Origin: Cryobacterium sp. PAMC25264
Lineage (GTDB): Bacteria > Actinomycetota > Actinomycetes > Actinomycetales > Microbacteriaceae
NCBI RefSeq assembly: GCF_019443325.1
Contig: NZ_CP080383.1
Location: 1,240,001-1,304,000, forward strand
Reading direction: 5' to 3'
Length of the DNA stretch: 64,000 nucleotides
A model generated the notes under the pieces. That model had not been told where the DNA came from. It saw only the letters and a list, made by a program, of their open reading frames with translations, and did not search any database. Both the position numbers and the translations under genes were made by a program. Below are positions 1-18,553 of the stretch, piece by piece; positions within the stretch are counted from its first letter, which is position 1; every line of letters starts with the position of its first letter.

Positions 1-822
1 GTGGGCAAGTCGTCGTTGTTGTCGATGATCGCCCGCGGCACCGACGCCGAGGTGTCCGTGATCGCCCTGGTCGGGGAGCGCGGCCGCGAGGTGCGGGAGT
101 TCCTCGAGGACGACCTGGGCGCGGAGGGGCTTGCCCGGTCGATCGTGGTGGTGTCCACCTCGGACGAACCGGCCATGATGCGCCTGCGCGCCGCGTTCGT
201 CGCTACCCGCATCGCGGAGTCGTTCCGTGACCGGGGTGCCGACGTGATGTTGATGATGGATTCGCTGACCCGGGTGGCCATGGCTCAGCGCGAGATCGGC
301 CTGTCCGCCGGGGAGCCACCGGCCACCCGGGGGTACCCGCCGTCGACGTTCTCGCTGCTCGCCCGGCTGCTGGAACGGGCCGGCACCGACCAGGTCGGCT
401 CGATCACGGGTATCTACACGGTGCTCGTCGACGGCGACGATCACAACGAGCCCATCGCGGATGCCGCCCGGTCCATCCTCGATGGACACGTCGTGCTCGA
501 TCGCACGCTGGCTGTGCTCGGGCACTTCCCCGCCGTGGACGCTCTCGCCTCGATCTCCCGGGTGGCATCACGAGTGACCACCCCGCAGCAGGCCGAGTCG
601 GCCAGCCGGCTGCGCGCCGTCCTGGCCGCCCGCCGCGCCGCGCAGGACCTGCTCGACGTGGGCGCCTACCGCCGCGGCACCAACCCGTTGGTGGACGCGG
701 CCGTGGAGCACGATGCGGCGATCACGGCATTTCTGCGCCAGCGGATCGACGAGCACACCCCGGCCGACCAGGCTTGGACCCGGCTCGCCGAACTGGCCGC
801 GCTGCTCGGCGGCGACCAATGA
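1..822 (+). CDS. fliI: Flagellum-specific ATPase FliI (5' truncated by window)
   Basis: This ATPase of the flagellar type III export apparatus powers and orders delivery of rod, hook and filament subunits at the inner face of the basal body. The window opens inside the P-loop: the first visible residues are V-G-K-S-S of the Walker A motif, so the first GTG is an internal valine codon and roughly the N-terminal 160 residues lie upstream. The Walker B stretch LMMDSLTR (about residues 83-90) and the segment SAGEPPATRGYPPS are typical of FliI and SctN proteins and differ from F1-ATPase beta. The stop overlaps the fliJ start as ATGA, matching the usual fliI-fliJ order. Confidence 0.95.
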   Translation: MGKSSLLSMIARGTDAEVSVIALVGERGREVREFLEDDLGAEGLARSIVVVSTSDEPAMMRLRAAFVATRIAESFRDRGADVMLMMDSLTRVAMAQREIGLSAGEPPATRGYPPSTFSLLARLLERAGTDQVGSITGIYTVLVDGDDHNEPIADAARSILDGHVVLDRTLAVLGHFPAVDALASISRVASRVTTPQQAESASRLRAVLAARRAAQDLLDVGAYRRGTNPLVDAAVEHDAAITAFLRQRIDEHTPADQAWTRLAELAALLGGDQ

Positions 823-1358
823 GCCGCCCGTTCTCCCTCGCCGGGTTGCTGCGGTTGCGCCACCTCGAGCAGGACCAGGCCGCCGGCGACCTGGCCGCCG
901 CGAACGCGCGACTCAGGGCGACGGCCACCCGCATCGACGAAACCCGGGCGGCGCTCGAGCACCTGCCGCTGAACCCCACCGGGGCCGACACCCTCTACGC
1001 GATCGCGGCGGCACGGGCATCCTCTCGGAGCATGCTGGCCGAACTGGCCGCGCTGGACGGCGTGGCCCAGCAGGCGGCGGCAGTGGCACGAGCGGACTTC
1101 GAGGCGAAGAAGGCCGCGTCGGCGAGCCTGGAAAAGCTCGAAGGGCGACACGGGGCTTCGGCGGCGGCGGAGGACCTGCACGCCCAGCAGACGGTCATCG
1201 ACGAGATCGCCTCGACGGGCTGGCATCGAAGGCAGGGCGAGCAGCGCGCGCAGGCCGGAACCACGGCGAACGGAATCACAGCGTCGGGTAAGCCAGCGTC
1301 CGGCAACACGGCACTGGGAAACACAGCATCGGGACACGCAGCGGGGGAGAGAACATGA
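819..1358 (+). CDS. fliJ: Flagellar export chaperone FliJ-like protein
   Basis: This 179-residue protein starts at the ATG that overlaps the fliI stop. FliJ is a small coiled-coil protein that sits in the FliI hexamer and escorts export substrates. The N-terminus (MSRPFSLAGLLRLRHLEQDQ) followed by an Ala/Glu/Arg-rich helical stretch to about residue 130 fits a FliJ antiparallel coiled coil. FliJ sequences are poorly conserved, so position after fliI carries much of the call. The last 30 residues are a degenerate Ser/Thr/Gly/Ala repeat (TASGKPASGNTALGNTASG), unlike ordinary FliJ. An in-frame ATG at 774 lies inside fliI and was not used. Confidence 0.8.
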   Translation: MSRPFSLAGLLRLRHLEQDQAAGDLAAANARLRATATRIDETRAALEHLPLNPTGADTLYAIAAARASSRSMLAELAALDGVAQQAAAVARADFEAKKAASASLEKLEGRHGASAAAEDLHAQQTVIDEIASTGWHRRQGEQRAQAGTTANGITASGKPASGNTALGNTASGHAAGERT

Positions 1359-2122
1359 CACTGGTGGATGCCACGCAGCGGGTGGGAGAAATCCAGGCGC
1401 GGCTGGTGCAGCTCAACGACCTGGTCGCCGGGGGCACCGGCGTCACGGCGAGCAAGACGGCCGCGGCGACCGCGACGGCGTCGGCCACGAGCTTCGCGGA
1501 TGCCCTGGCTGCGGCGACCGCAACGTCCACCGTGGCCAACGCCGGGGGAGCCACGGGTACCGACGTGGTTGCCTCCGCGGAGAAGTACCTGGGCGTGCCA
1601 TACGTCTTCGGCGGGGAGGACGGCAGCGGGATGGACTGCTCGGGGCTCGTGCAGCGGGTGTATGCCGACCTGGGCATAGACGTTCCGCGCCTGGTCTCGG
1701 GGCAGATGACCATCGGCACCGAGGTGGGCTCCCTCGCCGAGGCGCGCCCCGGTGACCTCATCGTGACGGGCGGTGGAGAACACATCCTGATCTATGCCGG
1801 CAACAACCAGGTGATCCACGCTCCGTATGAGGGACGCACGGTCTGCAAGGTAGATGCCTACATGGACGATTCCGACATCGACACCATCCGGCGGGTGATT
1901 CCGGATGCCGCGGCAGCCGGCACGGCGTCGAGCACGGTGTCGGGCACGGTGTCGGGCACGGCGCTGAGTGCAACATCGAGCTCGAGCCAGACCGATCTGC
2001 TCACGGCGGCGTTCGCCTCACTGTTCTCGGGAACGGCGACGCAGTCGGCGCAGTCCACGTCGGCGCTGTCCACGTCGGCGCTGTCCGCTTCCGGACTGTC
2101 CACGTCTGGACTGGCGTCGTGA
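1355..2122 (+). CDS. C40-family (NlpC/P60) peptidoglycan peptidase in the flagellar locus
   Basis: This 255-residue protein carries a central NlpC/P60 domain at about residues 70-165. The catalytic Cys95 lies in DCSGLV and a His at about 143 in GGGEHILIY, followed by VIHAP. Such enzymes cleave D-Glu-diaminoacid bonds in peptidoglycan stems. No signal peptide is evident, so export may go through the flagellar apparatus. Its place between fliJ and fliK suggests it opens the wall for the growing rod, the job FlgJ does in Proteobacteria; this is an inference. The tail after residue 185 is Ser/Thr/Ala-rich with 5-residue repeats (STSAL, SASGL). It overlaps fliJ and fliK at ATGA and GTGA-type junctions. 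Confidence 0.85.
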   Translation: MTLVDATQRVGEIQARLVQLNDLVAGGTGVTASKTAAATATASATSFADALAAATATSTVANAGGATGTDVVASAEKYLGVPYVFGGEDGSGMDCSGLVQRVYADLGIDVPRLVSGQMTIGTEVGSLAEARPGDLIVTGGGEHILIYAGNNQVIHAPYEGRTVCKVDAYMDDSDIDTIRRVIPDAAAAGTASSTVSGTVSGTALSATSSSSQTDLLTAAFASLFSGTATQSAQSTSALSTSALSASGLSTSGLAS

Positions 2123-4089
2123 CCTCGGGCGCCGCACCTCTGAGCCCGGGACCGGCAGCGACCCGCCTATCAGCTGGGCGACTGTCACCGGCATCGACAG
2201 GCGCAGCAGACGGTTCCCGGCGAGCCGCGGCCGCCTTTGCCGGCATGCTGAAAGATGCCGCCACCCGCCCCGGTCCGGACGTCACCGTGACGAGGTCGGC
2301 GGCAGCGTCGAAAAGGACCGAGCACCACGCTGCGGCGGGACATCCCTCCGGAGGCGCGACAACCGGCTCAGCAGCCGCATCAGACGACGCAGCAACCGCT
2401 GCAACCGCGGCAGCCGCAGCGGGCATAGCCCACGCACGTGCAACCGTGTCGAGCGGCGCCGAGACCGCAGCCACCCGTGCCGGCGCGGTTCCCCACGACG
2501 CAGCCCATACCGCCTCCGCTCACGTCGGCGGAGCCCCAGCCACCGCTGGGGAACTCGGCACTGGACAGGGGGGCACCATCCCGTCGGCGCAGACTTCGGC
2601 CGAGTCGGCCGAGGCGGCCACGATGGACGGGACAGCCGGGTCAGGACTCGTCCAGGCCGGTGCCACCGACGCCGGGCTTCCGCGGGCCGCCGGTCTCACG
2701 CAGCTTGGCGGTCTTCCGGAGTCTGGTGGTGTCCTGCCCGGCGGGGCCTCGTCGAGCAACGCCCCAGGCACCGCCGCCCCGGGCAGCGCCTCTGATGGCG
2801 CGGCGACCGCGGGGACCGTCTCCACCCTCGCAGCTCTGATCGGTGCTACTTCGGCGGGCGCTGATGTGAGCGGCACCGTCCTCACCGATGCAGTTCTGGG
2901 CGGTGCCGGCCAGAGCGGCGCCGCACTCATCGGGGCGGAGCTCTCCGGTGCCTCCGGGACCGGAGCCGACCCGAGCGGTGGAGCCTCGGGTGGCGCCAAC
3001 CTGGGTGGCGCCGTCCTGGGTGGCGCCGACCTGAGTGGTGCCCCCCTCGGTGGTGCCGGACAGAGTGGTACAGACCTGACGGGTGCGGCCCAGGGAGTGT
3101 CGGCCGCAGGCACCGCAGGCATGAACAGTGCGAATCCCAGCGCCACGGCCCACATCGTCGCAGCCCAGCTCGGTGTTGCCCAGTCTGGTGCCGTCACGCT
3201 CGGTGTCGCCCCAGCCGGTGTTGCGCAGGCCGGCGCTCAGAACGGCGCCGTTCCCGCGGCCGTGAACCAGACGATCGCAGCGCCGGGCGATTCCTCCCCG
3301 GTGGAGGCCGCTGCCGCGACGGGCTCTGCTGCAGGGACCGCCGCCGGCACTGTCACCGCCACCACGACGGCCGCCGCGACTGCCGCTGCCGCCACACCTG
3401 TCAAGGCGGCCGGAGCGCGGGACGGTCGGATCGGAGCTGTACCCGCGACGGTACCCGACGCATCCGCGGGGGCCGTGGCCACCGGGCCCGCCGCCCCGGA
3501 TTCGGCCATACCCATGGGCTTCACGGTCCCGGGGACGGTCCTGGGGGCATCCGCACCCGCTGTGGCCCCTCCGACAGGTGCTGTGCCGAACAGTACGCCG
3601 GTGCCCCTGGCCACCCAGGTCGCCCGGCCATTGTTCACCCTGGCCGCCGCGGGCCCGGGGGAGCACACCCTGTCGATCAGCGTGACCCCCGACAACCTGG
3701 GACCGGTGCTGGTGCGCGCGCAGATCAGCGCCGGCGGAATGCGACTGGAACTCTTCGCTCCCACCGACGCAGCCCGCGAGGCGCTGCGCCTCATCCTGCC
3801 CGACCTGCGTCGCGACCTCGCCGGAGGCGGGCTTCCGGCCAGCCTCGACCTGTCCAGCCGAAGCCAGCCGGGGGACCCGGGTCAGTCCGGCCCGCAGGAT
3901 CGTGCCGCTACCGGTCAGGGGAACCCGGGTCCTGGGGGCGATGCCGGCGGGCACCAGGACCGGCCGAGGGTCGCGGTTCCGGATCCCTGGCTCAGATCGT
4001 CCGTCCCGGCATCCGCAGACCCGGCCGGCGGCTCACCCGATGATGCCGGTGGCCACTCGCAGAGGGGACGTGTTGATGTTCTCGCCTGA
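2119..4089 (+). CDS. fliK: Flagellar hook-length control protein FliK
   Basis: FliK is a secreted ruler that sets hook length and switches export specificity through FlhB. The gene starts at a GTG overlapping the preceding stop. The first 500 residues are almost entirely Ala/Gly/Thr/Ser, as expected for a disordered ruler. At about residues 513-575 lies a conserved C-terminal Flg_hook domain (LSISVTPDNLGPVLVRAQIS, then LRLILPDLRRDLAGGGL). A block at 2989-3078 is built from 15-bp units encoding pentapeptide-like GGA(D/N/V)L repeats. Its 656 residues are longer than many FliK proteins. Its position upstream of flgD and flgE supports the call. Confidence 0.9.
   Translation: MTSGAAPLSPGPAATRLSAGRLSPASTGAADGSRRAAAAFAGMLKDAATRPGPDVTVTRSAAASKRTEHHAAAGHPSGGATTGSAAASDDAATAATAAAAAGIAHARATVSSGAETAATRAGAVPHDAAHTASAHVGGAPATAGELGTGQGGTIPSAQTSAESAEAATMDGTAGSGLVQAGATDAGLPRAAGLTQLGGLPESGGVLPGGASSSNAPGTAAPGSASDGAATAGTVSTLAALIGATSAGADVSGTVLTDAVLGGAGQSGAALIGAELSGASGTGADPSGGASGGANLGGAVLGGADLSGAPLGGAGQSGTDLTGAAQGVSAAGTAGMNSANPSATAHIVAAQLGVAQSGAVTLGVAPAGVAQAGAQNGAVPAAVNQTIAAPGDSSPVEAAAATGSAAGTAAGTVTATTTAAATAAAATPVKAAGARDGRIGAVPATVPDASAGAVATGPAAPDSAIPMGFTVPGTVLGASAPAVAPPTGAVPNSTPVPLATQVARPLFTLAAAGPGEHTLSISVTPDNLGPVLVRAQISAGGMRLELFAPTDAAREALRLILPDLRRDLAGGGLPASLDLSSRSQPGDPGQSGPQDRAATGQGNPGPGGDAGGHQDRPRVAVPDPWLRSSVPASADPAGGSPDDAGGHSQRGRVDVLA
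2989..3078 (+). repeat. Six 15-bp tandem units inside fliK
   Basis: Units start at 2989, 3004, 3019, 3034, 3049 and 3064. The first three are nearly identical (GGTGGCGCC-NNC-CTG) and the later ones diverge. They encode a GGANL/GGAVL/GGADL/SGAPL series. Degenerate copies extend upstream to about 2830, consistent with recent tandem expansion in the ruler region. Confidence 0.8.
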
Positions 4090-4182
4090 TCCGCCGCACG
4101 GTGAAGCACCTCCGGCCATGCCCTTGTCACCACAGTCCTCCCCGCCCACCTCATCCCCGCAGCCCCCGAGAAACGAGATCTC

Positions 4183-4638
4183 ATGACCATCGACGCCGTA
4201 GGGACCGTGGCCGCAGCTACCCCGAACGCCACCGGCTCGGCCACCAAAGCCGGTATGTACGCCACCACGCCGGTGCGCACGCCCAAGCAGACCCTGGACT
4301 CCGAAGCCTTCATGTCGCTCCTGGTCACCCAGCTTCGCAACCAGGATCCCAGCTCGCCCATGGATACGAACCAGATGATCTCACAGACCACCCAGCTGGC
4401 CATGATGGAGAAGATCACCGCCCTGTCCACCACCTCGGACGAGAACTTCTCGCTGCAGATGCGCACGTCGGCCGCGGCCCTCGTCGGCCAGAACGTCACC
4501 TACACGGATGCCGCGGGACTGAGCGTCTCCGGAATCGTCTCCGCGGTGTCCTTTGCGGGCTCGGTGCCCCAGGTCACCGTCGGCAAGGCCAGCGTGGCCC
4601 TCGATGCCATCTCGGGGGTGACCGCCCCGACGGGGTGA
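4183..4638 (+). CDS. flgD: Flagellar hook-capping protein FlgD
   Basis: FlgD forms the temporary scaffold at the tip of the growing hook on which FlgE assembles. The 151-residue product has the diagnostic N-terminal signature (FMSLLVTQLRNQDPSSPMDT, then FlgD-typical QTTQLAMMEKI). A short C-terminal part carries the start of the FlgD Ig-like/tudor region (ALVGQNVTYTDAAGLSVSG). It is shorter than the enterobacterial protein, as in many Gram-positive bacteria. It lies 93 bp after fliK and 88 bp before flgE. Confidence 0.93.
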   Translation: MTIDAVGTVAAATPNATGSATKAGMYATTPVRTPKQTLDSEAFMSLLVTQLRNQDPSSPMDTNQMISQTTQLAMMEKITALSTTSDENFSLQMRTSAAALVGQNVTYTDAAGLSVSGIVSAVSFAGSVPQVTVGKASVALDAISGVTAPTG

Positions 4639-4726
4639 CCCGGCACCACCTCTCGGCCGCTCGGCAGGGCCGACACCACCGCACCCACCATCATCCGTCT
4701 GCACGACCTCTCGAAAGGAAGCACCC

Positions 4727-5914
4727 ATGCTTCGCTCTCTCTACTCCGGTATCTCCGGCCTTCGCGCTCACCAGACCATGCTCGACGTCACCGGCAACAA
4801 CATCGCCAACGTCAACACCACGGCGTTCAAGGCGTCGGCAACCCAGTTCCAGGACACCCTGTCCCAGCTGACCCAGGGCGCCAGCGGACCCGGTGCCCAG
4901 ACCGGCGGCACCAACCCGGCCCAGGTGGGCCTCGGAGTCCAGGTCGCCGGCATCTCGACCAACTTCACCCAGGGTTCTTCGCAGTCCACCGGCAAAGCCG
5001 GCGACATGCTCATCTCCGGCGACGGCTTCTTTGTGACCAAGGAAGGCGGCCAGACCCTCTACAGCCGGGCGGGTTCCTTCGATTTCGATTCGTCCGGGCG
5101 GCTAGTGACACCGTCCGGTGCGATCGTGCAGGGCTGGGGTGCGGTCAACGGCGTGATCAACGAGGGCGGTGCGCTTGGTGACATCACCTTGCCGCAGAAC
5201 GTCGTGATCGCCGGAACCGTAACGACATCTGCGGCCATGGGCGGAAACCTGCCGTCGGATGCAGCAGAGGGCAAGTCAGTGTTGCTTGACATCAAGGTCT
5301 ACGACGCGGCGGGGGCGGCCCGCACGGTGTCGCTCACCTTCACGCGCACGGCAGCGGCGGGCGGGTGGGCCGTCTCCGGGACCGACGGCACCGCGGCGGG
5401 ATCTCCCACAGGCTCGACGACTTTGGCCTTCACTGACGGCAAGCTCGTCTCTGGGCCCGATCTGGTCGTCGGCGGAATCACTGTGAGTATGGCGGCGCTC
5501 ACCGGCTTTGCCGGCCTCAGCACGGCCGTAGTCGCATCCAAATCCGGGAGCGCGCCCGGTTCGCTGGAGTCCTATTCTTTCAGCAAGGACGGCACCCTCA
5601 TCGGACTGTTCAGCAACGGCGAGCAGAAGGCCCTCGGCCGCATCGCCCTGGCCACATTCACAAACCCGGGTGGTCTCGAGAAAACCGGGTCCAACGGATA
5701 CCAGGCCACATTCAACTCCGGCACCGCTGAAATTGGCGCTCCCGGATCGACCGGGCTGGGCTCACTCACCGGTGGAGCCCTGGAGATGTCGAACGTGGAC
5801 CTCTCACAGGAGTTCACCAACCTCATCGTCGCGCAGCGTGGCTTCCAGGCGAACGCTCGCATCATCACGACCTCGGATGAGGTCCTGCAGGAACTCACCA
5901 ACCTCAAGCGCTAA
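4727..5914 (+). CDS. flgE: Flagellar hook protein FlgE
   Basis: This is the subunit of the hook, the universal joint between rod and filament. The 395-residue protein has the N-terminal flagellar rod/hook motif (MLRSLYSGISGLRAHQTMLD, then VTGNNIANVNTTAFKAS). The matching C-terminal segment is LEMSNVDLSQEFTNLIVAQR followed by GFQANARIITTSDEVLQELTNLKR. These ends form the coiled D0/D1 core, and the variable middle is exposed. A Shine-Dalgarno (CGAAAGGAAG) precedes the ATG. A strong hairpin terminator follows at 5922, so the early flagellar unit probably ends here. Confidence 0.96.
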   Translation: MLRSLYSGISGLRAHQTMLDVTGNNIANVNTTAFKASATQFQDTLSQLTQGASGPGAQTGGTNPAQVGLGVQVAGISTNFTQGSSQSTGKAGDMLISGDGFFVTKEGGQTLYSRAGSFDFDSSGRLVTPSGAIVQGWGAVNGVINEGGALGDITLPQNVVIAGTVTTSAAMGGNLPSDAAEGKSVLLDIKVYDAAGAARTVSLTFTRTAAAGGWAVSGTDGTAAGSPTGSTTLAFTDGKLVSGPDLVVGGITVSMAALTGFAGLSTAVVASKSGSAPGSLESYSFSKDGTLIGLFSNGEQKALGRIALATFTNPGGLEKTGSNGYQATFNSGTAEIGAPGSTGLGSLTGGALEMSNVDLSQEFTNLIVAQRGFQANARIITTSDEVLQELTNLKR

Positions 5915-8959: not shown

Positions 8960-8986
8960 TAACCTAATGCGCCCGTCGGCCGACAG
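8960..8986 (+). promoter_or_regulatory. Sigma-28/sigma-D-like promoter upstream of flbD
   Basis: TAAC (8960-8963), a 15-bp spacer, then GCCGACAG (8979-8986). This matches the flagellar sigma consensus TAAA-N15-GCCGATAA at 3 of 4 and 6 of 8 positions. The flbD ATG is 47 bp downstream. The same architecture recurs upstream of fliM. Confidence 0.6.
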
Positions 8987-9033
8987 TGGTCGCTGACGGC
9001 TACTGGAGCCGTCCGGGAACCAGGGACGGGTCC

Positions 9034-9315
9034 ATGATCGTTGTAACCAGGCTGAACGATAGTCAGTTCGCGATCAATCCCGACCTCATCGAACGCATCC
9101 ATGTGAACCCGGACACCACCCTCGTGATGGTGGACGGAGCCAAGTTCATCGTCACGGAGAGCCTGGCCGAGGTGATCGAGAAGATCGCCGCCTATCGGGC
9201 GCACGTGATCAACCTGGCCTACACCTCCCCACATGGCAGCGACGGCGACCACACCGCGTCCGATCCCGACACTCGACCGGACGCCGTTGTCCCCCTGCGC
9301 CCCCGGAGAATGTAG
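9034..9315 (+). CDS. flbD: Flagellar FlbD family protein
   Basis: This 93-residue protein of the FlbD/SwrD family includes MIVVTRLNDSQFAINPDLIE and TLVMVDGAKFIVTESLAEVI. In Bacillus the homologue SwrD is reported to raise motor torque; it is not the Caulobacter response regulator also named FlbD. The ATG at 9034 is preceded by GGGACGGG and matches the family start. An upstream in-frame GTG at 8986 overlaps the predicted promoter and was rejected. The gene abuts motA with no gap, which fits a role with the stator. Confidence 0.9.
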   Translation: MIVVTRLNDSQFAINPDLIERIHVNPDTTLVMVDGAKFIVTESLAEVIEKIAAYRAHVINLAYTSPHGSDGDHTASDPDTRPDAVVPLRPRRM

Positions 9316-10134
9316 ATGGATCCCGCAACCCTGATCGGTATCGTCCTGGCGTTCGGCGCCCTGTTCGCGATGATCACCATCGAGGGATCGCACGTCACCG
9401 CGATCCTGCTCCCGGCGCCGATGGTGCTGGTGTTCGGTGCCACCATCGCCGTCGGCATCGCCGGGGGAACCCTGCGGGACACGATCCAGGCCGTCAAGGC
9501 GCTGCCAGGCGCCTTCCTGGGCAAGACCACGCCGCCACAGAAGCTCATCGACCAGGTCGTCGGCCTGGCCGAGAAGGCGCGCAGTTCGGGTCTCCTCGCC
9601 CTCGAGCAGGAAGCCGACAAGGTCTCGGACCCGTTCCTCCGCGGTGCACTGCAGAACATCGCCGACGGCACGGACGGTGACGAGCTGCGCATCCTGCTCG
9701 AAGATGAGATCGCCACCCGCACCAAGGCGAGCCGCACCGCCGCCAAGTTCTTCACCACGCTCGGCGGCTACGCCCCGACGGTCGGCATCATCGGCACCGT
9801 GATCTCCCTCACCCATGTGCTCGAGAACCTGGACACGCCGTCCACCCTCGGCCCCATGATCGCTGCGGCGTTCGTGGCCACCCTGTGGGGCCTGCTGAGC
9901 GCGAACTTCCTCTGGCTGCCGATCGGCAACCGGCTCAAGCGCCTGTCCGACATCGAGGCCGAACGGATGACCCTGCTGATGGAGGGTGCCCTCGCCGTTC
10001 AAGCCGGCAGTCAGCCACGGCTTCTCGGCGAACGGCTGCAGGCCATGGTGCCCCTCGCCTCCGCGAAGTCCGCCAAAGGCAGCAAACAGGGCAAGCAGTC
10101 CGGGGCGGCCAAGCCGCTCAAGAAGGCCGCGTGA
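9316..10134 (+). CDS. motA: Flagellar motor stator protein MotA
   Basis: MotA is the membrane subunit of the proton-driven stator that pushes on FliG in the rotor. The 272-residue product has the expected two N-terminal membrane segments (LIGIVLAFGALFAMITIEGS, then ILLPAPMVLVFGATIAVGIAGG). A cytoplasmic region follows, then the conserved pair of later segments around GGYAPTVGIIGTVISLTHVL and AAFVATLWGLLSANFLWLPI. The tail is Lys/Ser-rich and cytoplasmic. Its stop overlaps the motB GTG start. Confidence 0.96.
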   Translation: MDPATLIGIVLAFGALFAMITIEGSHVTAILLPAPMVLVFGATIAVGIAGGTLRDTIQAVKALPGAFLGKTTPPQKLIDQVVGLAEKARSSGLLALEQEADKVSDPFLRGALQNIADGTDGDELRILLEDEIATRTKASRTAAKFFTTLGGYAPTVGIIGTVISLTHVLENLDTPSTLGPMIAAAFVATLWGLLSANFLWLPIGNRLKRLSDIEAERMTLLMEGALAVQAGSQPRLLGERLQAMVPLASAKSAKGSKQGKQSGAAKPLKKAA

Positions 10135-10400
10135 GCGGTCACGGCCGGGGGCGCCGCCGCGGCCTGGAGGAGGAACACGAAGAGCACGTCGACGAACGCT
10201 GGATGGCCTCCTATATGGACATGGTCACCGTGCTGATGTGCATGTTCATCGTGCTCTTCGCCATGTCGACGGTCGATCAGGCGAAATTCGTGCAGCTGAA
10301 GAACTCCCTGGCCACCGGATTCGGGTCCGTCGACGTGGGCAAGGTCGACACCGCCGAGGGCATCGTGGTGCCACCCGATCTGGTCGACACCCCGCTGTGA
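10131..10400 (+). CDS. motB: MotB N-terminal part: membrane segment and plug region
   Basis: This 89-residue frame starts at a GTG overlapping motA (GTGA). It contains the basic cytoplasmic tail, the single membrane helix, and the universally needed proton-binding Asp (D30 in MASYMDMVTVLMCMFIVLFA). The following VDQAKFVQLKNSLATGFG region corresponds to the plug and linker. It stops at 10400 inside what should be the periplasmic linker. The peptidoglycan-binding OmpA domain continues in another frame, so alone this product lacks its wall anchor. It may be half of a broken or recoded motB. Confidence 0.85.
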   Translation: MSGHGRGRRRGLEEEHEEHVDERWMASYMDMVTVLMCMFIVLFAMSTVDQAKFVQLKNSLATGFGSVDVGKVDTAEGIVVPPDLVDTPL

Positions 10401-11029
10401 ACCAGGACGTCGGACTCACCGACCTCGAACTGGCCATCGCCGAAGTCGACGACCTGACTGCCGTGGAGAAAGCGATGGACAGCGCCCTCACGGCCGTCGG
10501 ACTGAACACCCTGGTGGAATACACCATCGACGAGCGCGGGCTCTCGGCGGGCCTGGTGGGATCCGAGACGTTCTTCGAACCCAATGTGGCCACCCTGAGT
10601 GTGCAGGCGGTCTCGGTCCTCGACACCATCGGACCGATCCTGGCCGGCACCGCACGGCAGGTGTCGGTGGAGGGGCATGCCGACCGGCACGGCGTGACCA
10701 TCAACTATCCGACCGACTGGGAACTCTCCAGCGCCCGCGCCACCCAGGTATTGCGACACCTGGTGGAGCGCACCGGTGTGGCCCAGGAGCGGATCGGCGC
10801 CGTGGGCTACGGCTCGGCCCGACCGGTCGACATGGGCGACGACCTGGCCGCGATGGCCCGCAACCGGCGGGTCGACGTGGTGCTGCTGTCGAACCAGCCG
10901 GACAGCGTGCGCGCCCTGATCCCGTCGGTCCTCGATGGCACGGCGGTACCGGACGAGCCCGTGGAACCTGGTCCGGCCGCCCCGGCAGGCACCTCGCCGG
11001 GGGACTCGGCGGAGGACACCGGGCACTGA
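10397..11029 (+). CDS. motB: MotB C-terminal part: OmpA-like peptidoglycan-binding domain
   Basis: This frame opens with GTG at 10397, overlapping the previous stop as GTGA, and encodes 210 residues. The OmpA-like domain at about residues 55-160 includes SVEGHADRHG, WELSSARATQVL, VGYGSARPV and NRRVDVVLL. A disordered Pro/Ala/Gly tail follows. It has no signal peptide or membrane helix, so as a separate protein it would stay in the cytoplasm. One inserted base near 10397 would fuse both frames into a normal MotB. Frameshift, assembly error, recoding or true splitting cannot be told apart from sequence alone. Confidence 0.8.
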   Translation: MNQDVGLTDLELAIAEVDDLTAVEKAMDSALTAVGLNTLVEYTIDERGLSAGLVGSETFFEPNVATLSVQAVSVLDTIGPILAGTARQVSVEGHADRHGVTINYPTDWELSSARATQVLRHLVERTGVAQERIGAVGYGSARPVDMGDDLAAMARNRRVDVVLLSNQPDSVRALIPSVLDGTAVPDEPVEPGPAAPAGTSPGDSAEDTGH

Positions 11030-11039
11030 GCACCCCACA

Positions 11040-11064
11040 CCACCCGCCGGAACCTGCCGGGTGG
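11040..11064 (+). terminator. Possible terminator between motB and fliM
   Basis: A 7-bp stem pairs CCACCCG (11040-11046) with CGGGTGG (11058-11064) around an 11-nt loop. It has no T-run. Position between motB and the fliM promoter suggests a transcription unit boundary. Confidence 0.4.
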
Positions 11065-11079
11065 ATCCGGCGACGCCGC

Positions 11080-11106
11080 TAACATCCGTTCGCGACCGGC
11101 CGATAG
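11080..11106 (+). promoter_or_regulatory. Sigma-28/sigma-D-like promoter upstream of fliM
   Basis: TAAC (11080-11083), a 15-bp spacer, then GCCGATAG (11099-11106). It matches the TAAA-N15-GCCGATAA consensus at 3 of 4 and 7 of 8 positions. Expected initiation near 11112-11115 coincides with the fliM GTG at 11115, so the transcript may be leaderless. Confidence 0.65.
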
Positions 11107-11114
11107 TGCCAGTC

Positions 11115-12023
11115 GTGACGGTCCAGGAACACAACAGCACGGGCGTGCCCGGAAAACCGGCGCGCACGGTGGAGGTCTATGACTTCAGCCGTCCGACGAC
11201 GCTGGCCCGCGACCATGCCCGGGTGCTGGAGCTGGCCTTCGAGACCTTCGCCCGGCAGTGGGGAACCCAGCTGACCGCGCAGGTGCGCGTGATCTCCCAG
11301 GTCACCTGCGAGCAGGTACTCATGCGCGGCTACGACGAGTACGCCGCGTCGCTGCCCGCCACGACGACCATGGTGCTCTGCAACGTCGGCGACCTCGAGG
11401 CCCAGGCCGTCATCCAGTTTCCCTCGGCCGCGGCTCTGTCCTGGGTCACCCACATGCTCGGGGGAACCGGCCTGCCCGCCCCCTCTGAGCGCCCGTTCAC
11501 CCAGATCGAGCAGGCGCTCGTGCGGCGTCTGATGGACGATGCCCTCGAAGACCTGCGGTACTCGCTCGGCGCGCTGCTCACCCGTCCCATCATTGTCGGG
11601 GCCATCCAGTACAACTCCCAGTTCGCCCAGGCCGCCGCCACGGCCGATCTCATGATCGTGGCGAGCTTCACCATCCGGGTCGGCGAGAGCACCACCACCG
11701 CCACCCTCGCCCTGCCGGCCGAGGCTCTGCTCCCGCAGCTCGGCGAGCCCGGACCGGTACTGCCACCCACCCCGGCTCCCGAACTGCTCCGCGCCCAGCT
11801 CGGCTGGGTGCCCGTCGACGTGTCGGTGCGTCTCACCCACGCCCGCGTCAAGCCCAGCGCCATCCTGGCCCTGGCCGTCGGCGACGTCCTGGCCCTCCCG
11901 CATCCCACCCACCGACCGCTCGACCTGGTGGTGGATGGCCGCCCGCTCGCCCGGGCCGCCGTCGGATCCACCGGGTCCCGCCTGGCCTGCATCATCATCG
12001 ACACCGAGGACACCACGCCATGA
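11115..12023 (+). CDS. fliM: Flagellar motor switch protein FliM
   Basis: FliM is a C-ring component that binds phosphorylated CheY and sets rotation direction. The 302-residue product has the FliM middle domain (VYDFSRPTTLARDHARVLEL, FETFARQWGTQL, VTHMLGGTG, RPFTQIEQALVRRLMDDAL) and a C-terminal SpoA domain. The N-terminus lacks the classical CheY-binding LSQxEID box seen in enterobacteria. I chose GTG 11115; GTG 11106 is also in frame. No Shine-Dalgarno is visible, which fits a leaderless transcript from the predicted promoter. Its stop overlaps fliN. Confidence 0.92.
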   Translation: MTVQEHNSTGVPGKPARTVEVYDFSRPTTLARDHARVLELAFETFARQWGTQLTAQVRVISQVTCEQVLMRGYDEYAASLPATTTMVLCNVGDLEAQAVIQFPSAAALSWVTHMLGGTGLPAPSERPFTQIEQALVRRLMDDALEDLRYSLGALLTRPIIVGAIQYNSQFAQAAATADLMIVASFTIRVGESTTTATLALPAEALLPQLGEPGPVLPPTPAPELLRAQLGWVPVDVSVRLTHARVKPSAILALAVGDVLALPHPTHRPLDLVVDGRPLARAAVGSTGSRLACIIIDTEDTTP

Positions 12024-12772
12024 CGCTTCACAGCCCCGCGCAGCAGCATTTCGCCGCCCCGGCCACCGCGCACGCCCACCCCGGCCTCACCGACGGCACG
12101 GCGCAGGCGGCGGTGGACGCCCTTCTCACGGTGTTGCCCACCGCCACGCTGCTCAGCGCCCGGCCGGGCGTCGCCGCGGCGGCCGCGGGTCTCGCCGGCG
12201 GGGCCGTGGTGGCCTCCTTCGTGGGCGCCACATCGGCCGACCTCGCCGTCGTGCTGGCCGACCCGGCCTCGCTCGACGCGGCGGCCGGCGCCGACGGCGG
12301 CCTGGTGTCGCGTGACGACATCGTGCGCCCGGCCCTCGAGCGTGCCGCAGGGGCCCTCGGGCTCGGCGTGCTCGGCGACGCCCGCGTCGACGACGCCTCC
12401 GCACTGCTGCTCGACCCGGAGACCGTGGTCTTCGACCTCGTCGGCGACGGCGAGACGGTGGGCTGGTTCGCGATCCGCCTGCGCCAGAACGGCACCCCTG
12501 CCGTGCGGAACGAAAGCGCCGTCGGCAACCTCGGCCGGATCAACAGCGTGGAGATGGCCCTCACCGTGGAGATCGGCCGCACCCGCATGACCGTCCGCGA
12601 CGTACTGGCCCTCGAACCCGGTGCCGTTGTGGAGCTGGACCGTTCGGTCGGCTCGCCCGCGGACATCCTGCTCAATGGCCGGCTCATCGCCCACGGCGAG
12701 ATCGTCGTGGTCGATCAGGACTACGCGGTGCGCATCACCGAGATCCTCGACGTCGCCGAGAGCCTGAGCTAG
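12020..12772 (+). CDS. fliN: Flagellar motor switch protein FliN (FliY-like)
   Basis: FliN forms the base of the C-ring and docks export ATPase complexes. The 250-residue protein is longer than enterobacterial FliN. It has an N-terminal region of about 170 residues that resembles the CheC-like part of FliY only loosely. The C-terminal SpoA domain is clear (VEMALTVEIGRTRMTVRDVL, ALEPGAVVELDRSVGSPADI, LLNGRLIAHGEIVVVDQDYA). The start is an ATG overlapping the fliM stop, and fliO begins immediately after the stop. Confidence 0.92.
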   Translation: MTLHSPAQQHFAAPATAHAHPGLTDGTAQAAVDALLTVLPTATLLSARPGVAAAAAGLAGGAVVASFVGATSADLAVVLADPASLDAAAGADGGLVSRDDIVRPALERAAGALGLGVLGDARVDDASALLLDPETVVFDLVGDGETVGWFAIRLRQNGTPAVRNESAVGNLGRINSVEMALTVEIGRTRMTVRDVLALEPGAVVELDRSVGSPADILLNGRLIAHGEIVVVDQDYAVRITEILDVAESLS

Positions 12773-13300
12773 GTGGACACCGTCGTCGTCGCCCTCAGAG
12801 TGGTGCTGTCCCTGGCCGTGGTGCTCGGGCTGCTCTGGGTGCTGCAACGACGCCTGTCCAGGGGCCCCGGCACGCGCACGGCCAATGTCGTCACGGTCGT
12901 GGGCCGCCAGGGCCTCGGCCAGAAGGTATCCGTGGTGGTGGTCGATGTCGACGGCCGCCGGTTCGTGCTCGGTGTGACGGAGCAGTCCGTCACCGTGCTC
13001 CACGGCGGCGAGGCCGAACCCGAGGCAAATCGGGCTGAACACCAGACCTCGGATGACCGATCGGCCGCTTTCGCCCGGTCCCTTCACGCGGCCTCCGGCG
13101 GCCCCACGCTCGTACCGCCGGTGCTCGTGCCGCTGCGGGTGGAGGAACCCGTCGCCTCCGCCACGGCCGGGCTGTCCGCCGACCCGCCGCTCACCTTCCG
13201 GCCGCGCCGCGATCGCAGCAGCACTGGGCGTCTGGGCGGCTCCATCCTGTCCCCGTCCACCTGGCAACAGACCGCCGCCCTGCTCCGGCACGGCCGGTGA
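12773..13300 (+). CDS. fliO: Flagellar biosynthesis protein FliO
   Basis: FliO is a small membrane protein that assists assembly of the FliP ring of the export gate. It has 175 residues. One N-terminal membrane helix (ALRVVLSLAVVLGLLWVLQR) is followed by a basic cytoplasmic FliO domain (VVTVVGRQGLGQKVSVVVVD, then RRFVLGVTEQSVTVLH) and a long disordered tail. The GTG start directly follows the fliN stop, and the stop overlaps the fliP GTG as GTGA. Position immediately before fliP is canonical. Confidence 0.9.
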   Translation: MDTVVVALRVVLSLAVVLGLLWVLQRRLSRGPGTRTANVVTVVGRQGLGQKVSVVVVDVDGRRFVLGVTEQSVTVLHGGEAEPEANRAEHQTSDDRSAAFARSLHAASGGPTLVPPVLVPLRVEEPVASATAGLSADPPLTFRPRRDRSSTGRLGGSILSPSTWQQTAALLRHGR

Positions 13301-14286
13301 AGCCCGTCCTGCCAAGCCCGGCACGCGCCGGACTCGTCCCACGGGCGGTTGGTGGGCTGGCACCCGGGCCGATCCGTCGACCGTCACGCCCGCGCGCAGT
13401 GGTCGGTGAGCGGCGCCGCCGGCTGGCTCGCATCGGCGTCGCCGCCGCCCTGATCCTCATCATCGTGGCCGCCCTGATGATGCTGGTCGCCTCGGCAGGA
13501 CACGCTGCCGGAAACACGACCGGCCACAGCCACGCCCTGGCGGTACCCGCCGAACCGATCGCGCCCACCGACCCGGCCACGCCCACCCCCGTGGCCACGC
13601 CGGCGGCCACCCCGGGCACCGGGCTCACGGTGGAGATCAACGGTCCGGACGGCGCCCCCTCCTCGGCCATCGTGACCCTGATCGGCATCACGCTGCTGTC
13701 GGTGGCCCCGGCGCTGCTGCTGATGATGACGTCGTTCACCAAGATCTTCGTGGTTCTCGCCATGACCCGCAACGCCCTCGCGCTGCCGTCGATCCCGCCG
13801 AACCAGGTGCTCGCCGGTCTCGCCCTGTTCCTGTCGCTGTTCATCATGGCTCCCGTGCTCACCGACATCAACACTGATGCCCTGCAGCCCTACCTCAACG
13901 GCACCATGACCTTCGACGACGCCGTGACGACAGGGTCGGAGCCGCTGCGTACCTTCATGCTCGCGCACACCAGGCAGGAGGACCTCGCCCTGATGGTGCG
14001 CGCCTCCGACCAGCCCAACCCGGCCAACACCGCCGCCGTATCGCTGCTCACCCTCATCCCGGCGTTCATGATCTCCGAACTCCGGGCCGCGTTCATCATC
14101 GGCTTCGTGATCTTCATCCCGTTCCTGGTCATCGACCTCGTGGTGTCCGCGGCGCTGATGTCGATGGGCATGATGATGCTGCCACCCGTGATGATCTCCC
14201 TGCCGTTCAAGATCCTGCTGTTCATCCTCGTCGACGGCTGGGGCCTGATCATCACGACTCTGGTCAACAGTTACCGGGGTGGCTGA
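13297..14286 (+). CDS. fliP: Flagellar export gate protein FliP
   Basis: FliP is the main ring protein of the export gate. The 329-residue product is longer than usual. An Arg/Pro-rich start is followed by a hydrophobic signal-like helix (IGVAAALILIIVAALMMLVA) and a Pro/Ala/Thr linker to about residue 105. The conserved FliP body follows (LTVEINGP, LLMMTSFTKIFVVLAMTRNA, LPSIPPNQVLAGLALFLSLF, TLIPAFMISELRAAFIIGFV, MMMLPPVMISLPFKILLFIL). The long periplasmic linker before the body is unusual. Confidence 0.96.
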   Translation: MKPVLPSPARAGLVPRAVGGLAPGPIRRPSRPRAVVGERRRRLARIGVAAALILIIVAALMMLVASAGHAAGNTTGHSHALAVPAEPIAPTDPATPTPVATPAATPGTGLTVEINGPDGAPSSAIVTLIGITLLSVAPALLLMMTSFTKIFVVLAMTRNALALPSIPPNQVLAGLALFLSLFIMAPVLTDINTDALQPYLNGTMTFDDAVTTGSEPLRTFMLAHTRQEDLALMVRASDQPNPANTAAVSLLTLIPAFMISELRAAFIIGFVIFIPFLVIDLVVSAALMSMGMMMLPPVMISLPFKILLFILVDGWGLIITTLVNSYRGG

Positions 14287-14561
14287 TGGACTCCAACGCC
14301 GTTCTCGACATCGGGCTGCAGGCCATCGTCGTGGCCGCCAAGCTCTCCGCGCCCATCCTGATCACCGCCCTGGTGGTCGGCTTCGCGATCTCCCTCGTGC
14401 AGTCGATCACACAGATCCAGGAGGTGACGCTCTCCTTCGTGCCCAAGGCCATCGCGGTCTGCGTGGCCATGCTCATCTGCGGACACTGGATGATCTCGGA
14501 GATCGTCTCGTTCACCACCAATCTGTTCGACAAGATCCCCGGCCTCATCGGCGGTGGCTAG
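14286..14561 (+). CDS. fliQ: Flagellar export gate protein FliQ
   Basis: FliQ packs around FliP and FliR in the export gate. It has 91 residues and two membrane helices, with the hallmark segment (ITALVVGFAISLVQSITQIQ followed by EVTLSFVPKAIAV). The ATG shares one base with the fliP stop (TGATG), and fliR starts directly after the stop. Length and order are standard. Confidence 0.96.
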   Translation: MDSNAVLDIGLQAIVVAAKLSAPILITALVVGFAISLVQSITQIQEVTLSFVPKAIAVCVAMLICGHWMISEIVSFTTNLFDKIPGLIGGG

Positions 14562-15320
14562 GTGAACATCACCCTGGACTTCGGCTGGCTCGAAGCCGTG
14601 CTGCTCGCGGGTGTGCGCATGGTCGCGTTCCTCGTGATCGCGCCGCCGTTTTCGTTCAACGCCTTCCCACTGCGCATCAAGGGCATGCTCGCCGTGGGGC
14701 TGGCCCTGGCCGTCGCCCCACGCGTGGTGCCCGGCTACGCCTCGCCGGACACGGGCGGGTTCATCCTGGCGCTGCTGCTCGAGATCCTCGTGGGCGGGGT
14801 GTTGGGCTTCCTGGTGCTCGTCGTCTTCTCCGCCATCCAGTCCGCCGGTAACCTCATCGACCTGTTCGGCGGCTTCCAGCTGGCCCAGGGCTTCGACCCG
14901 CAGTCGATGGTCAACGGTGCCCAGTTCACTCGGCTTTACCAGATGACCGCGCTGGCGCTCCTGTTCGCCTCCGGTGGCTACCAGCTCATCCTCGGTGGAC
15001 TCGCCCGGTCGTTCGCCGCCCTGCCGGTCGGCGGCGGAATCGACCTCGCCGTGCCCCTCGAGGCCATCACCGCAGCCGTCGGCCAGATGCTCCTGGCCGC
15101 TGTGCAGATCGCCGGCCCCCTCATCGTGGTGCTGTTCCTCGCCGACGCGGGCCTCGGCCTCCTCACCCGGGTGGCGCCCGCGCTGAACGCCTTCGCCCTC
15201 GGCTTCCCGCTCAAGATCCTCATCACCCTCACCCTCGGCGCGGCCGGCTTCATGGCCCTCCCAGGCATCGTGGCGTCCCTCACCGACGACGCGGTCACAA
15301 GCATGTGGGGGGTGCGCTGA
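14562..15320 (+). CDS. fliR: Flagellar export gate protein FliR
   Basis: FliR caps the FliP/FliQ helical gate assembly. It has 252 residues with several hydrophobic segments. Typical family features are FSFNAFPLRIKGMLAVGLAL, the IQSAGNLIDLFGGFQLAQGF loop, and the C-terminal FALGFPLKILITLTLGAAGF region. The GTG start abuts the fliQ stop. The stop TGA shares its last base with the flhB ATG. Confidence 0.96.
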   Translation: MNITLDFGWLEAVLLAGVRMVAFLVIAPPFSFNAFPLRIKGMLAVGLALAVAPRVVPGYASPDTGGFILALLLEILVGGVLGFLVLVVFSAIQSAGNLIDLFGGFQLAQGFDPQSMVNGAQFTRLYQMTALALLFASGGYQLILGGLARSFAALPVGGGIDLAVPLEAITAAVGQMLLAAVQIAGPLIVVLFLADAGLGLLTRVAPALNAFALGFPLKILITLTLGAAGFMALPGIVASLTDDAVTSMWGVR

Positions 15321-16501
15321 TGAGCGATTCGGGCGAACGCACCGAACAAGCCACCGAGAAGCGGATGCGCGAGGTGCGCTCCAAGGGACAGCTCTCCCGC
15401 TCCCAGGACCTCACGGCGTGGGTCGGCATCGGCGCTGCCGCGGTGATGATGCCCCTCACCATCCAGGCCGGTGCCGCCGCCGGGCGGACACAACTGTTCG
15501 ACATCCGTGCGGTGGCCGAGAACCCCGACCCGCAACGTGCGCTGGACCTGCTCGGTGAGGGACTCGGCGCTATGGGCGGCATCCTCACCCCGATGCTGAT
15601 CGTGGTGTGCGTGGCGGTCCTGGCCGGGTCGATCGCCCAGGGCGGTATCCACATCAAGAAGCTCGCCGGCAAGTACGACCAGTTCAACCCGGTCACCGGA
15701 CTGGCCCGCACCTTCGGCAGCCAGGCCCTGTGGCAGGGGGTGAAGGCACTGCTGAAGACCGTCGTCGTCGGCGTGGTGCTGACGAGCGTGATCCAGGGCC
15801 TGACGCCGGTGCTCATGACCGCCGGGGGACTGCCCGTGACCGTGCTGATCGGCGCCGCCACGGACGGCACCGCCGCGCTGGTGCAGTCGGCCGTGATCGC
15901 CGGTCTCGTGCTGGCCGCCGCCGACGTGTTCGTGGTGCTGCGGCGCAACCGCAAGCGCACCCGGATGACCAAGAAGGAGGTCACCGACGAGCACAAGAGC
16001 TCGGAGGGCGACCCGCTGATCCGCTCCCAGCGCCGGGCCCGGCAACTGGCGATGAGCCGCAACCGCATGATCGCCGCGGTCGCCACCGCCGACGTGGTGC
16101 TGATCAACCCCACCCATTTCGCCGTGGCCCTGCGCTATGAGCCGGGTAAGTCGGCACCGCGCGTGGTCGCCACGGGTGCCGGGGTGATCGCCGCCCGCAT
16201 CCGCGAGCAGGCGGAGACCGATGCCGTGCCCATCGTCAAGGACATCCCGCTCACCCGGGCGCTGCACAGCGCCTGCGCCCTCGGTGACGAGATCCCGGTG
16301 GAGCTCTACAACGCGGTCGCCCGGGTGCTCGCCTTCGTGCTGGCGCTCAAGACCCGCGGCTCCCGATCCGGCGTTCACACCATGACCACCCCGCCGGCGC
16401 CGCCCCCGCCGGCCCGCCATCGCGGCGCGCCCACCCCGCCCGGTCCCACAAGACACCCCTCGCACCTGCCCACTCGTATCCGCACCACGGAGGCCACCTA
16501 A
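15320..16501 (+). CDS. flhB: Flagellar export switch protein FlhB
   Basis: FlhB is the membrane protein whose self-cleavage switches export from hook to filament subunits. The N-terminus (GERTEQATEKRMREVRSKGQ) is diagnostic, followed by four membrane segments. The cleavage motif is visible as NPTH in DVVLINPTHFAVALRYEPGK. After the FlhBc domain come about 45 extra residues rich in Pro, His and Arg, not typical of the family. I used the ATG at 15320 overlapping fliR; an ATG at 15305 lies inside fliR. Confidence 0.96.
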   Translation: MSDSGERTEQATEKRMREVRSKGQLSRSQDLTAWVGIGAAAVMMPLTIQAGAAAGRTQLFDIRAVAENPDPQRALDLLGEGLGAMGGILTPMLIVVCVAVLAGSIAQGGIHIKKLAGKYDQFNPVTGLARTFGSQALWQGVKALLKTVVVGVVLTSVIQGLTPVLMTAGGLPVTVLIGAATDGTAALVQSAVIAGLVLAAADVFVVLRRNRKRTRMTKKEVTDEHKSSEGDPLIRSQRRARQLAMSRNRMIAAVATADVVLINPTHFAVALRYEPGKSAPRVVATGAGVIAARIREQAETDAVPIVKDIPLTRALHSACALGDEIPVELYNAVARVLAFVLALKTRGSRSGVHTMTTPPAPPPPARHRGAPTPPGPTRHPSHLPTRIRTTEAT

Positions 16502-18553
16502 GTGAACAGCACCCTCGCGAAACTCGCCGTCCCGGTCGGGGTGGTCGGCATCATCATGCTCCTGGTGGTCCCGGTGCCGGCCGTGCTCCTGGACGTGCTG
16601 ATCATCGTCAACATCCTGCTGGCCCTGGTGACCCTGCTCACCACGATGTTCGTCAAGAAGCCGCTGGACTTCTCGGTCTTCCCGTCGTTGCTGCTCGTGG
16701 CCACGCTGTTCCGGCTGGGCCTCAATGTGGCCTCCACCCGCCTCGTGCTCGGGCAGGGCTACGCCGGGCAGGTGATCGCGTCGTTCGGGCATGTGGCCGT
16801 CGGCGGCTCGATCATCATCGGCGCGGTGATCTTCCTGATCCTCGTCGTCATCCAGTTCGTCGTGGTCACCAAGGGTGCCGAACGTGTCGCAGAGGTGGGC
16901 GCCCGGTTCACCCTCGATGCCATGCCGGGCAAGCAGATGGCCATCGACGCCGACCTGAACGCCGGCCTCATCACCGACGTGCAGGCCAAGGACCGCCGTG
17001 CAGAGGTCTCGGCCGAGGCCGACTTCTACGGTGCCATGGACGGCGCCTCCAAGTTCGTCAAGGGCGACGCGATCGCCGGCATCATCATCATCGTGATCAA
17101 CCTGATCGGCGGCATCGCGATCGGCATGCTGCAGCGGGGCATGGAGATCGGCGACGCGCTGAACACCTACGCCCTGCTCACCATCGGCGACGGCCTGGTC
17201 ACCCAGATCCCTGCGCTTCTGATGGCCGTCTCCACCGGCATGATCGTCACCCGGTCCAACGCCGAGTCCGACATCGGCGCCACAGCGTCCGCCCAGCTCA
17301 CCCAGTCCCGCATGGCCCTGATGATTGCCGGAGCCGCCGCCATCCTGATGGCGCTCATCCCCGGCATGCCGATCATCCCGTTCGTGGTCGTCGGCGCCGG
17401 CCTCATCGTGCTCGCCCAACGCATCAAGGGCAACGAGGCCAGGGCCAAGGCCGGCGCAGCGGCTGCCGTGGCCGTCGAGAGCCGCGCCCCCCGGTCAGAC
17501 ACCGCCGAGGAGCTCATCGAGCAGATGCGCGTGCACGCCCTGGAGATTCAGCTCGCACCGGACCTGGTCGACCTGGTGTCCGGCGCATCCGACGATCTGC
17601 TCGCCCGGGTGCGGGCGCTCCGCCGCAAGGTCGCCCTCGACCTGGGCATGGTGGTGCCCCCGGTCCGCACGAGGGACAACGTCGACCTGCCGCCGGCCAC
17701 CTACTCCATCCGCATTTCCGGCGTCGAGGCCGGGCGGGGGATCGCCCCGGCCGGCAAGGTGCTCGCGCTCGGCGATAACCTGGAGTCCCTGCCGGGCACT
17801 GCGACGGTCGAACCGGTCTTCGGTCTGGCCGGCAAGTGGGTGTCCAGCGAGATGCGGCCCCGGGCCGAGATGGCCGGCGCCACCGTGATCGACCGGGTGT
17901 CGGTGCTCGTCACCCACCTGTCCTCGATCATCACGGGCAACGCCGCGCGGCTGCTCACCCGCGAAGACGTGCGGGTGCTCACGGATGGTGTGCGCCAGGT
18001 GAGTCCCTCCGCCGTCGACGACCTGGTGCCCGCCCTGCTCTCCCTGGCCGAGGTTCAGCGGGTGCTGCAGGGCCTGCTCGGCGAGCAGATCCCGATCAAC
18101 GACCTGCCGCGCATCTATGAGGCCCTCTCGGTGCGGGCCAAGGTGTCCGTGGACCAGGAGGGGCTGGTCGAGGCGGCCAGGCAGGCGCTGGGCCCCGCGC
18201 TGACCGCCCTGTATGTCGACGGCGGGGTGCTCCGGGTGATCATGATCGAACCGGGGCTCGAGCAGTCCATGCTCGAGGGTATGCGGCCGAGCGACCAAGG
18301 CAGCCAGATCCTCCTGGACCCGGTGCGGATCGACGCCATCCTCGGCTCACTGCAGAGCGCCATAGCCACCGTCGAGGCCAGCGGACGCACGGCGGTGCTG
18401 GTCTGCGCGCCGGCCTTGCGCCCCGCCATCCGGCGCCTGGTCTCGGCGCAGTCCGGCGGCCTGCCGGTGCTGTCCTACGAAGAGGTCACCTCCGCCCGCG
18501 TGGCCATCGAAACCGTGGGGGTGGTCCGTGGAACCGCGACGATTCCGGCTTGA
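16502..18553 (+). CDS. flhA: Flagellar export protein FlhA
   Basis: FlhA is the largest membrane component of the export gate. Its cytoplasmic ring docks substrate-chaperone complexes. The 683-residue length is standard. Eight N-terminal membrane helices include LDFSVFPSLLLVATLFRLGL followed by NVASTRLVL. The cytoplasmic FHIPEP signature region is visible (ALNTYALLTIGDGLVTQIPA). The C-terminal half contains VSPSAVDDLVPALLSLAEVQ. GTG start directly after flhB. The last 26 bp overlap the next gene in another frame. Confidence 0.97.
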   Translation: MNSTLAKLAVPVGVVGIIMLLVVPVPAVLLDVLIIVNILLALVTLLTTMFVKKPLDFSVFPSLLLVATLFRLGLNVASTRLVLGQGYAGQVIASFGHVAVGGSIIIGAVIFLILVVIQFVVVTKGAERVAEVGARFTLDAMPGKQMAIDADLNAGLITDVQAKDRRAEVSAEADFYGAMDGASKFVKGDAIAGIIIIVINLIGGIAIGMLQRGMEIGDALNTYALLTIGDGLVTQIPALLMAVSTGMIVTRSNAESDIGATASAQLTQSRMALMIAGAAAILMALIPGMPIIPFVVVGAGLIVLAQRIKGNEARAKAGAAAAVAVESRAPRSDTAEELIEQMRVHALEIQLAPDLVDLVSGASDDLLARVRALRRKVALDLGMVVPPVRTRDNVDLPPATYSIRISGVEAGRGIAPAGKVLALGDNLESLPGTATVEPVFGLAGKWVSSEMRPRAEMAGATVIDRVSVLVTHLSSIITGNAARLLTREDVRVLTDGVRQVSPSAVDDLVPALLSLAEVQRVLQGLLGEQIPINDLPRIYEALSVRAKVSVDQEGLVEAARQALGPALTALYVDGGVLRVIMIEPGLEQSMLEGMRPSDQGSQILLDPVRIDAILGSLQSAIATVEASGRTAVLVCAPALRPAIRRLVSAQSGGLPVLSYEEVTSARVAIETVGVVRGTATIPA

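Follow-up and report, generated by a model that had tools for sequence, protein, structure and literature searches.

The window analyzed here is a stretch of 64,000 nucleotides from Cryobacterium sp. PAMC25264 (contig NZ_CP080383.1, positions 1,240,001 to 1,304,000) that holds part of the flgB operon, the flbD-motA-motB genes and the run of genes from fliM to csrA (Table 1). The flagellar stretch to which these belong extends over 33 kb from fliW to csrA, with fliW lying directly 3' of flgL. An earlier note on this DNA, made from the letters alone, had named most of these genes, and its names held for flbD, flhA and csrA by Pfam and for motA, motB, fliM, fliN to fliR and flhB by NCBIfam, several of the latter under curated cut-offs; the one correction concerns motB, which this assembly splits over two reading frames. 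The membrane part of MotB is encoded in one frame, closed by a stop at 10398-10400, and a second frame encodes the OmpA part. At this position 32 of 33 relatives have a single open frame of at least 267 residues, the remaining locus (L041) giving no usable frame, and the split may be a true mutation or an assembly error.

Table 1. Features of the flagellar locus. Plain positions are those of the window; C1 is the single contig of the genome and L004 one of its own loci.
Feature	Position	Strand	Basis
Predicted sigma-28-type promoter of flbD-motA-motB, TAAC-N15-GCCGACAG	8960..8986	+	Motif scan; strong site before flbD in 16/16 genomes of the order
Predicted sigma-28-type promoter of fliM-to-csrA, TAAC-N15-GCCGATAG	11080..11106	+	Motif scan; strong site before fliM in 14/16 genomes of the order
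Predicted promoter of flgN-flgK-flgL-fliW	C1:1230266-1230291	-	TAAM-N15-GCCGAYA match
Predicted promoter of fliC	C1:1231485	+	TAAM-N15-GCCGAYA match
Predicted promoter of flgB operon	C1:1234849	+	TAAM-N15-GCCGAYA match
Probable FliA/WhiG-type sigma gene, between divergent flgN promoter and fliC	C1:1230579-1231487		Profile matches
flgN	L004:7710-8195	-	Pfam FlgN
flgB operon, part in window (fliI end, fliK, flgE among others)	1..5914	+	Pfam/annotation; promoter and two-hairpin leader outside window, C1:1234849-1234955
Predicted flbD leader region	8987..9033	+	No ANGGA-loop hairpin in own genome
flbD	9034..9315	+	Pfam FlbD match starts at the ATG at 9034, residue 17 of the ORF that opens at 8986
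motA	9316..10134	+	NCBIfam
motB, apparent frameshift near 10391-10400	10131..11029	+	NCBIfam; comparison with relatives
fliM, likely GTG start 8 nt past the -10; second in-frame GTG at 11106	11115..12023	+	NCBIfam; start geometry
fliN, fliO, fliP, fliQ, fliR, flhB, flhA	12020..18553	+	NCBIfam, Pfam
csrA, last recognized gene downstream of fliM promoter	19903..20166	+	Pfam; structure match

The two matching sites that the earlier note had pointed out before flbD and fliM, each with a 15-nt spacer, are present as described, and the window has no further match of TAAC-N15-GCCGAYAG; none of 100 shuffled windows gave any. The sigma-28 consensus consists of a TAAA-like -35, a 15-nt spacer and a GCCGATAA-like -10 (PMC8325347), and the form found here, TAAC-N15-GCCGA(C/T)AG, agrees with it but for one to two letters outside the core. 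Across the whole genome (one contig, 4,064,970 bases) the pattern TAAM-N15-GCCGAYA has eight matches, against one for a reversed control pattern, and five of the eight fall in the stretch from fliW to csrA, which makes up 0.8% of the genome (binomial P ~2e-9). Near-exact matches cluster in front of flagellar operons rather than in many unrelated places. Among the sites that had been looked for before fliC, mot and che genes, those before fliC and flbD-motAB are present, and sites before che genes cannot be expected because a search of the genome for CheW gave no match, despite the flagellar locus. The three exact-form matches outside the locus lie antisense within a MacB/FtsX-type gene (3885207), over open reading frames that have no Pfam match (360802), and between a divergent ABC-transporter gene and the rifampin ADP-ribosyltransferase gene arr (C1:3356806-3356831), where the match may be due to chance; since their number is close to the control level, we claim none of them as regulon members. 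With one mismatch allowed, TAAC-N15-GCCGATA has 18 matches in the whole genome versus 24 for the reversed control, so that only the near-exact form of the motif is informative and no further members of the regulon are claimed.

The genome has a probable FliA/WhiG-type sigma gene that, as the earlier note had expected, lies outside the window (Table 1). It stops 8.5 kb short of the window on the upstream side, and the TAA of its stop codon is also the TAA of the fliC promoter -35. The protein matches sigma regions 2 and 4 above the Pfam cut-off and region 3 just below it (23.9 vs 25.3); FliA/WhiG is its best NCBIfam model, yet under the curated cut-off (127.8 vs 189.6 bits), and its closest solved structure is FliA (6pmi). 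Fragments of the two other matches of the sigma search in this genome fit primary-type sigma models better. Past region 4 the protein has about 80 residues that are missing from FliA models, and relatives in the order mostly align only to about residue 250-280. A search of the genome for FlgM gave no match, despite the flagellar locus.

The sigma search took in 198 genomes of the order, and the stretches around the sigma gene were compared for 20 of them, 16 of which, together with the genome studied here, gave at least one leader (17 loci). G155, G169, G041 and G113, which have no flgB, flbD or fliM in the stretch, were left out of the leader counts, and G176 contributes a fliC leader only. 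The leader search took the best site per search window and penalized spacers other than 15, so that the choice was forced at weak sites (among them G125, G143, G023 fliC). Strong sites, defined by a group-neutral score of 14 or more out of 16, precede fliC in 14 of 17 and flgB in 13 of 16 genomes and, with flbD and fliM (Table 1), 57 of 65 first genes, versus 4 of 156 for ten genes taken as internal. At the -35, the 27 sites of the families closest to our genome read T(A/T)AC, and the 35 sites of the farther families mostly read TCA(C/T); 27/27 and 30/35 of these sites, respectively, have a spacer of 15, a length that the score favors. Named relatives found via FlhA, including Cryobacterium, Arthrobacter and Microbacterium, have similar sites before flbD, before fliM or before both.

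Given the sigma gene beside the locus, the concentration of the motif before flagellar operons and the presence of strong sites at first rather than internal genes, a dedicated sigma factor of the kind proposed in the earlier note is likely. Two further parts of that proposal have to be given up: the promoters are not specific to stator and switch/export-gate genes, each of the five operons recognized in the locus having this promoter in front, and a sigma-28-type site before fliM, which had been called unusual, is common in this group, because such sites recur in relatives of several families. The two sites in the window appear instead to belong to a five-promoter, single-sigma flagellar regulon covering all flagellar operons of the locus, in which this sigma factor most likely reads T(A/T)AC-N15-GCCGAYAG before each of the five.

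The fliM promoter has a geometry of its own. An in-frame start codon lies 7-8 nt past the fliM -10 in 27 of 33 loci (the exceptions being L025, L031, L035, L036, L038 and L040), and the codons after this early start (GTG ACG GTC CAG or close) recur in several loci. Transcription usually starts about 7 nt past the -10; the fliM transcript would therefore begin on or beside the GTG, and its mRNA is predicted to be, and probably is, leaderless. We consider it unlikely, though deserving of some weight, that translation instead uses a later in-frame start codon, that transcription starts upstream or that the message reads through from motB. Several loci do have later in-frame starts, for example 38 nt past the -10 in the fliM of our genome, but the recurrent distance and the recurrent codons after the early start speak against such a reading.

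Other leaders of the locus hold hairpins of a particular kind. CsrA and its relatives bind hairpins with an ANGGAN hexaloop, the RsmE/CsrA site (PMC7652899). In our genome the fliC leader has a GCCC-ATGGAT-GGGC hairpin and the flgB leader has two hairpins with ACGGATC loops. By a test that asks for four or more perfect pairs and an ANGGA within the loop, with shuffles for comparison, such hairpins occur in 16 of the 17 fliC leaders (mean of 0.34 and maximum of 3 in the shuffles), although one of the 16, G153, has a different hairpin over the ribosome site, and in the flgB leaders of all 16 genomes, with 29 hairpins (shuffle mean about 0.27-0.28, maximum 2). The fliC leaders also keep an ANGGA that overlaps the ribosome site. 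For flbD the count is 4 of 16 (shuffle mean 0.22, maximum 2), or 8 of 16 with G-U pairs allowed; the flbD leaders of our genome and of the near families have no ANGGA hairpin even with G-U pairs, and we reject the former as a CsrA target. The flgN leaders have no CsrA-type hairpin in any of 16 genomes by the stem test, several of the 16 promoter sites scoring weakly, and in our genome this leader has AGGGA in a predicted 8-nt loop. An ANGGAN-type loop on a 5' leader hairpin is thus found in our genome for fliC and flgB, and not for flbD or flgN. Over the 17 loci, leaders hold 143.6 hairpins per 10 kb and the remaining sequence 0.51 (~280-fold), with 48 of 114 hairpins within the leaders, which amount to 3,343 of 1.3 million strand-bases. 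In G197, G144 and G158, paired GGA-loop hairpins lie ~170-200 nt upstream of fliM, between a fliL-like gene and the promoter, a 3' untranslated position in which they might act as a CsrA decoy; no such pair was seen in our genome.

The leaders were also followed through the class. We searched 246 of its genomes with covariance models built from the fliC and the flgB leaders, at a threshold of E up to 0.05; each model matches our genome once, at fliC and at flgB, and the two have matches in 47 and 37 genomes, respectively. We checked the best 30 loci for each model, our own genome, G125 and G153 in each set having also served to build the models. Among the best 22 of the 30 fliC loci, 21 adjoin the start of a flagellin gene and the other is at the end of a contig, whereas none of the remaining eight adjoins such a start; of the 30 flgB loci, 21 adjoin flgB, including the best 16. 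In further families of the class, too, the leader hairpins stand ahead of flagellin and flgB genes. CsrA was found in 32 of the 246 genomes and in 21 of the 22 that have a good fliC-leader match, the sole exception being G219, whose genome is 80% complete; since both CsrA and leader go with flagella, we reject their co-occurrence as independent proof. Three fliC-type leader matches ~1.1 kb apart on contig C57 of G249, and two pairs on contig C7 of G338, suggest multiple flagellin genes that each have a separate hairpin.

The promoters could be real and the leader hairpins still be something other than CsrA sites, namely stems that stabilize the mRNA or tune its translation, or sites of another RNA-binding protein, a reading that we regard as improbable. 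In folds of the leaders by themselves, 15 of 17 fliC and 13 of 16 flgB leaders form the hairpin with a probability of 0.5 or more, with lower stem probabilities in our genome (0.32 for fliC, 0.01 for the second flgB hairpin), and the absence of the ANGGA hairpin from the minimum-energy fold of our fliC leader would be in keeping with another role. So would the flgB stems, which hardly vary and whose weak covariation is reached in 54 of 500 shuffles, and their loops, which in most genomes have 7 rather than 6 nt. The fliC stems have a covariation score of 0.393 vs a shuffled mean of 0.127 (0 of 500 as high), a measure that related rows can inflate. What favors CsrA is the loops themselves, in which the invariant letters are A and GGA and the N positions vary, matching the described ANGGAN site; 48 of 73 leader loops of 6-7 nt closed by at least four pairs begin with ANGGA, and the near-constant company of CsrA and fliC leader points the same way, subject to their shared link with flagella. 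That the two sites in the window are chance matches and their genes are transcribed by the primary sigma factor is highly improbable, since the lack of excess in the one-mismatch scan and the three exact matches outside the locus weigh little beside the crowding of the exact form into the locus and its conservation before first but not internal genes.

The CsrA encoded at the end of the fliM operon has 5dmb chain D as its closest solved structure and keeps L4, R6 and R44, positions with a known role in CsrA. Building on promoters, a sigma gene, conserved hairpins and a fliM geometry that can be read directly from the DNA, we consider it probable that the locus combines a single-sigma, five-promoter regulon with a post-transcriptional layer of CsrA-type leaders that would sort the transcripts. 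One FliA/WhiG-type sigma factor, encoded beside the flagellin gene, would serve flgN-flgK-flgL-fliW, fliC, flgB-to-flgE, flbD-motAB and fliM-to-csrA, and because the same type of promoter precedes all five operons the usual split between early and late genes is not visible at the promoters. In the second layer the fliC and flgB leaders would offer their ANGGA loops to CsrA, which most likely binds these hairpins, and the flbD leader would join the CsrA-type set in other families, not in our genome. CsrA would repress fliC, and FliW, acting as its antagonist, would relieve this repression. At flgB the hairpins lie near the 5' end, well upstream of the start codon, so that CsrA may protect the mRNA, although the effect could go either way. 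The fliM-to-csrA mRNA would give CsrA no leader to bind, because its transcript probably starts at or beside the GTG; by the tests used here, neither the csrA nor the fliW operon of our genome has an ANGGA hairpin in its leader.

One promoter motif for a whole flagellar gene set is not unusual for the phylum, for Jang and colleagues reportedly described in 2016 a single motif, CTCA-N15-17-GCCGAA, for all flagellar genes of Actinoplanes missouriensis. The present locus resembles that system, as reported, in having one motif before all flagellar operons, a spacer near 15 and a (here predicted) FliA-family sigma factor, and differs from it in the motif, T(A/T)AC-N15-GCCGAYAG; we know of no description of CsrA hairpins or a leaderless fliM for A. 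missouriensis. The sigma-28 regulons of E. coli FliA and B. subtilis SigD comprise mainly late genes and come with FlgM. The system described here shares with them the GCCGAT core of the -10, the spacer and probably the sigma family, whereas here every operon of the locus has the promoter and the search for FlgM was without a match. In A. missouriensis, WhiG-like flagellar sigma factors direct the flagellar genes (PMC8325347). CsrA and FliW jointly control B. subtilis flagellin (PMC7652899), and several flagellar mRNAs are under CsrA-FliW control in C. jejuni (PMC4894983). Our locus is like these circuits in its flagellin leader ANGGA hairpin, its GGA over the ribosome site and its csrA and fliW genes, and unlike them in that its most constant sites include two hairpins in the leader of the flgB basal-body operon and that the csrA and fliW operons have no such hairpins. 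The genome paper on Kineococcus radiotolerans reports csrA beside flagellar genes in four actinobacteria, notes no flgM, matches the Kineococcus flagellin leader to the B. subtilis BS2 site and proposes CsrA control from this ribosome-site match (PMC2587704). That match concerns a single species, and the accessible text of the paper describes neither a conserved hairpin nor a leader of flgB or flbD, and neither a set of promoters nor a leaderless fliM. Other regulators also act on flagellar genes, as deletion of phoP in Actinosynnema changes fliA, fliW and csrA, among other flagellar genes, together (PMC9019756).

In the mainly non-subscription literature on actinobacterial CsrA-FliW and leaderless csrA or fliM we found no account of these hairpins or of a leaderless fliM. 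An Rfam scan of four own loci (L004, L008, L009 and L010) gave three matches, all under gathering scores and none at the places of the leader RNAs described here. What looks new is the combination of CsrA-type leaders with a predicted leaderless csrA operon, the one-motif promoter set being of an already known type.

These features bear on a question raised in the Kineococcus paper, the order in time of flagellar genes in FlgM-less actinobacteria (PMC2587704). As a tentative proposal, to which we give less than even chances, flagellated actinobacteria that have no FlgM may have swapped a transcriptional hierarchy for a translational one: a single sigma factor would switch on all operons at once, and CsrA-FliW would order synthesis by way of hairpins that the mRNAs for basal body and filament carry and, in certain lineages, those for the stator as well, while the export-gate/csrA mRNA, by being leaderless, and the fliW mRNA would escape. 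CsrA-type hairpins on particular operons in several families, together with the predicted leaderless csrA operon, would give that question a concrete and cheaply testable answer.
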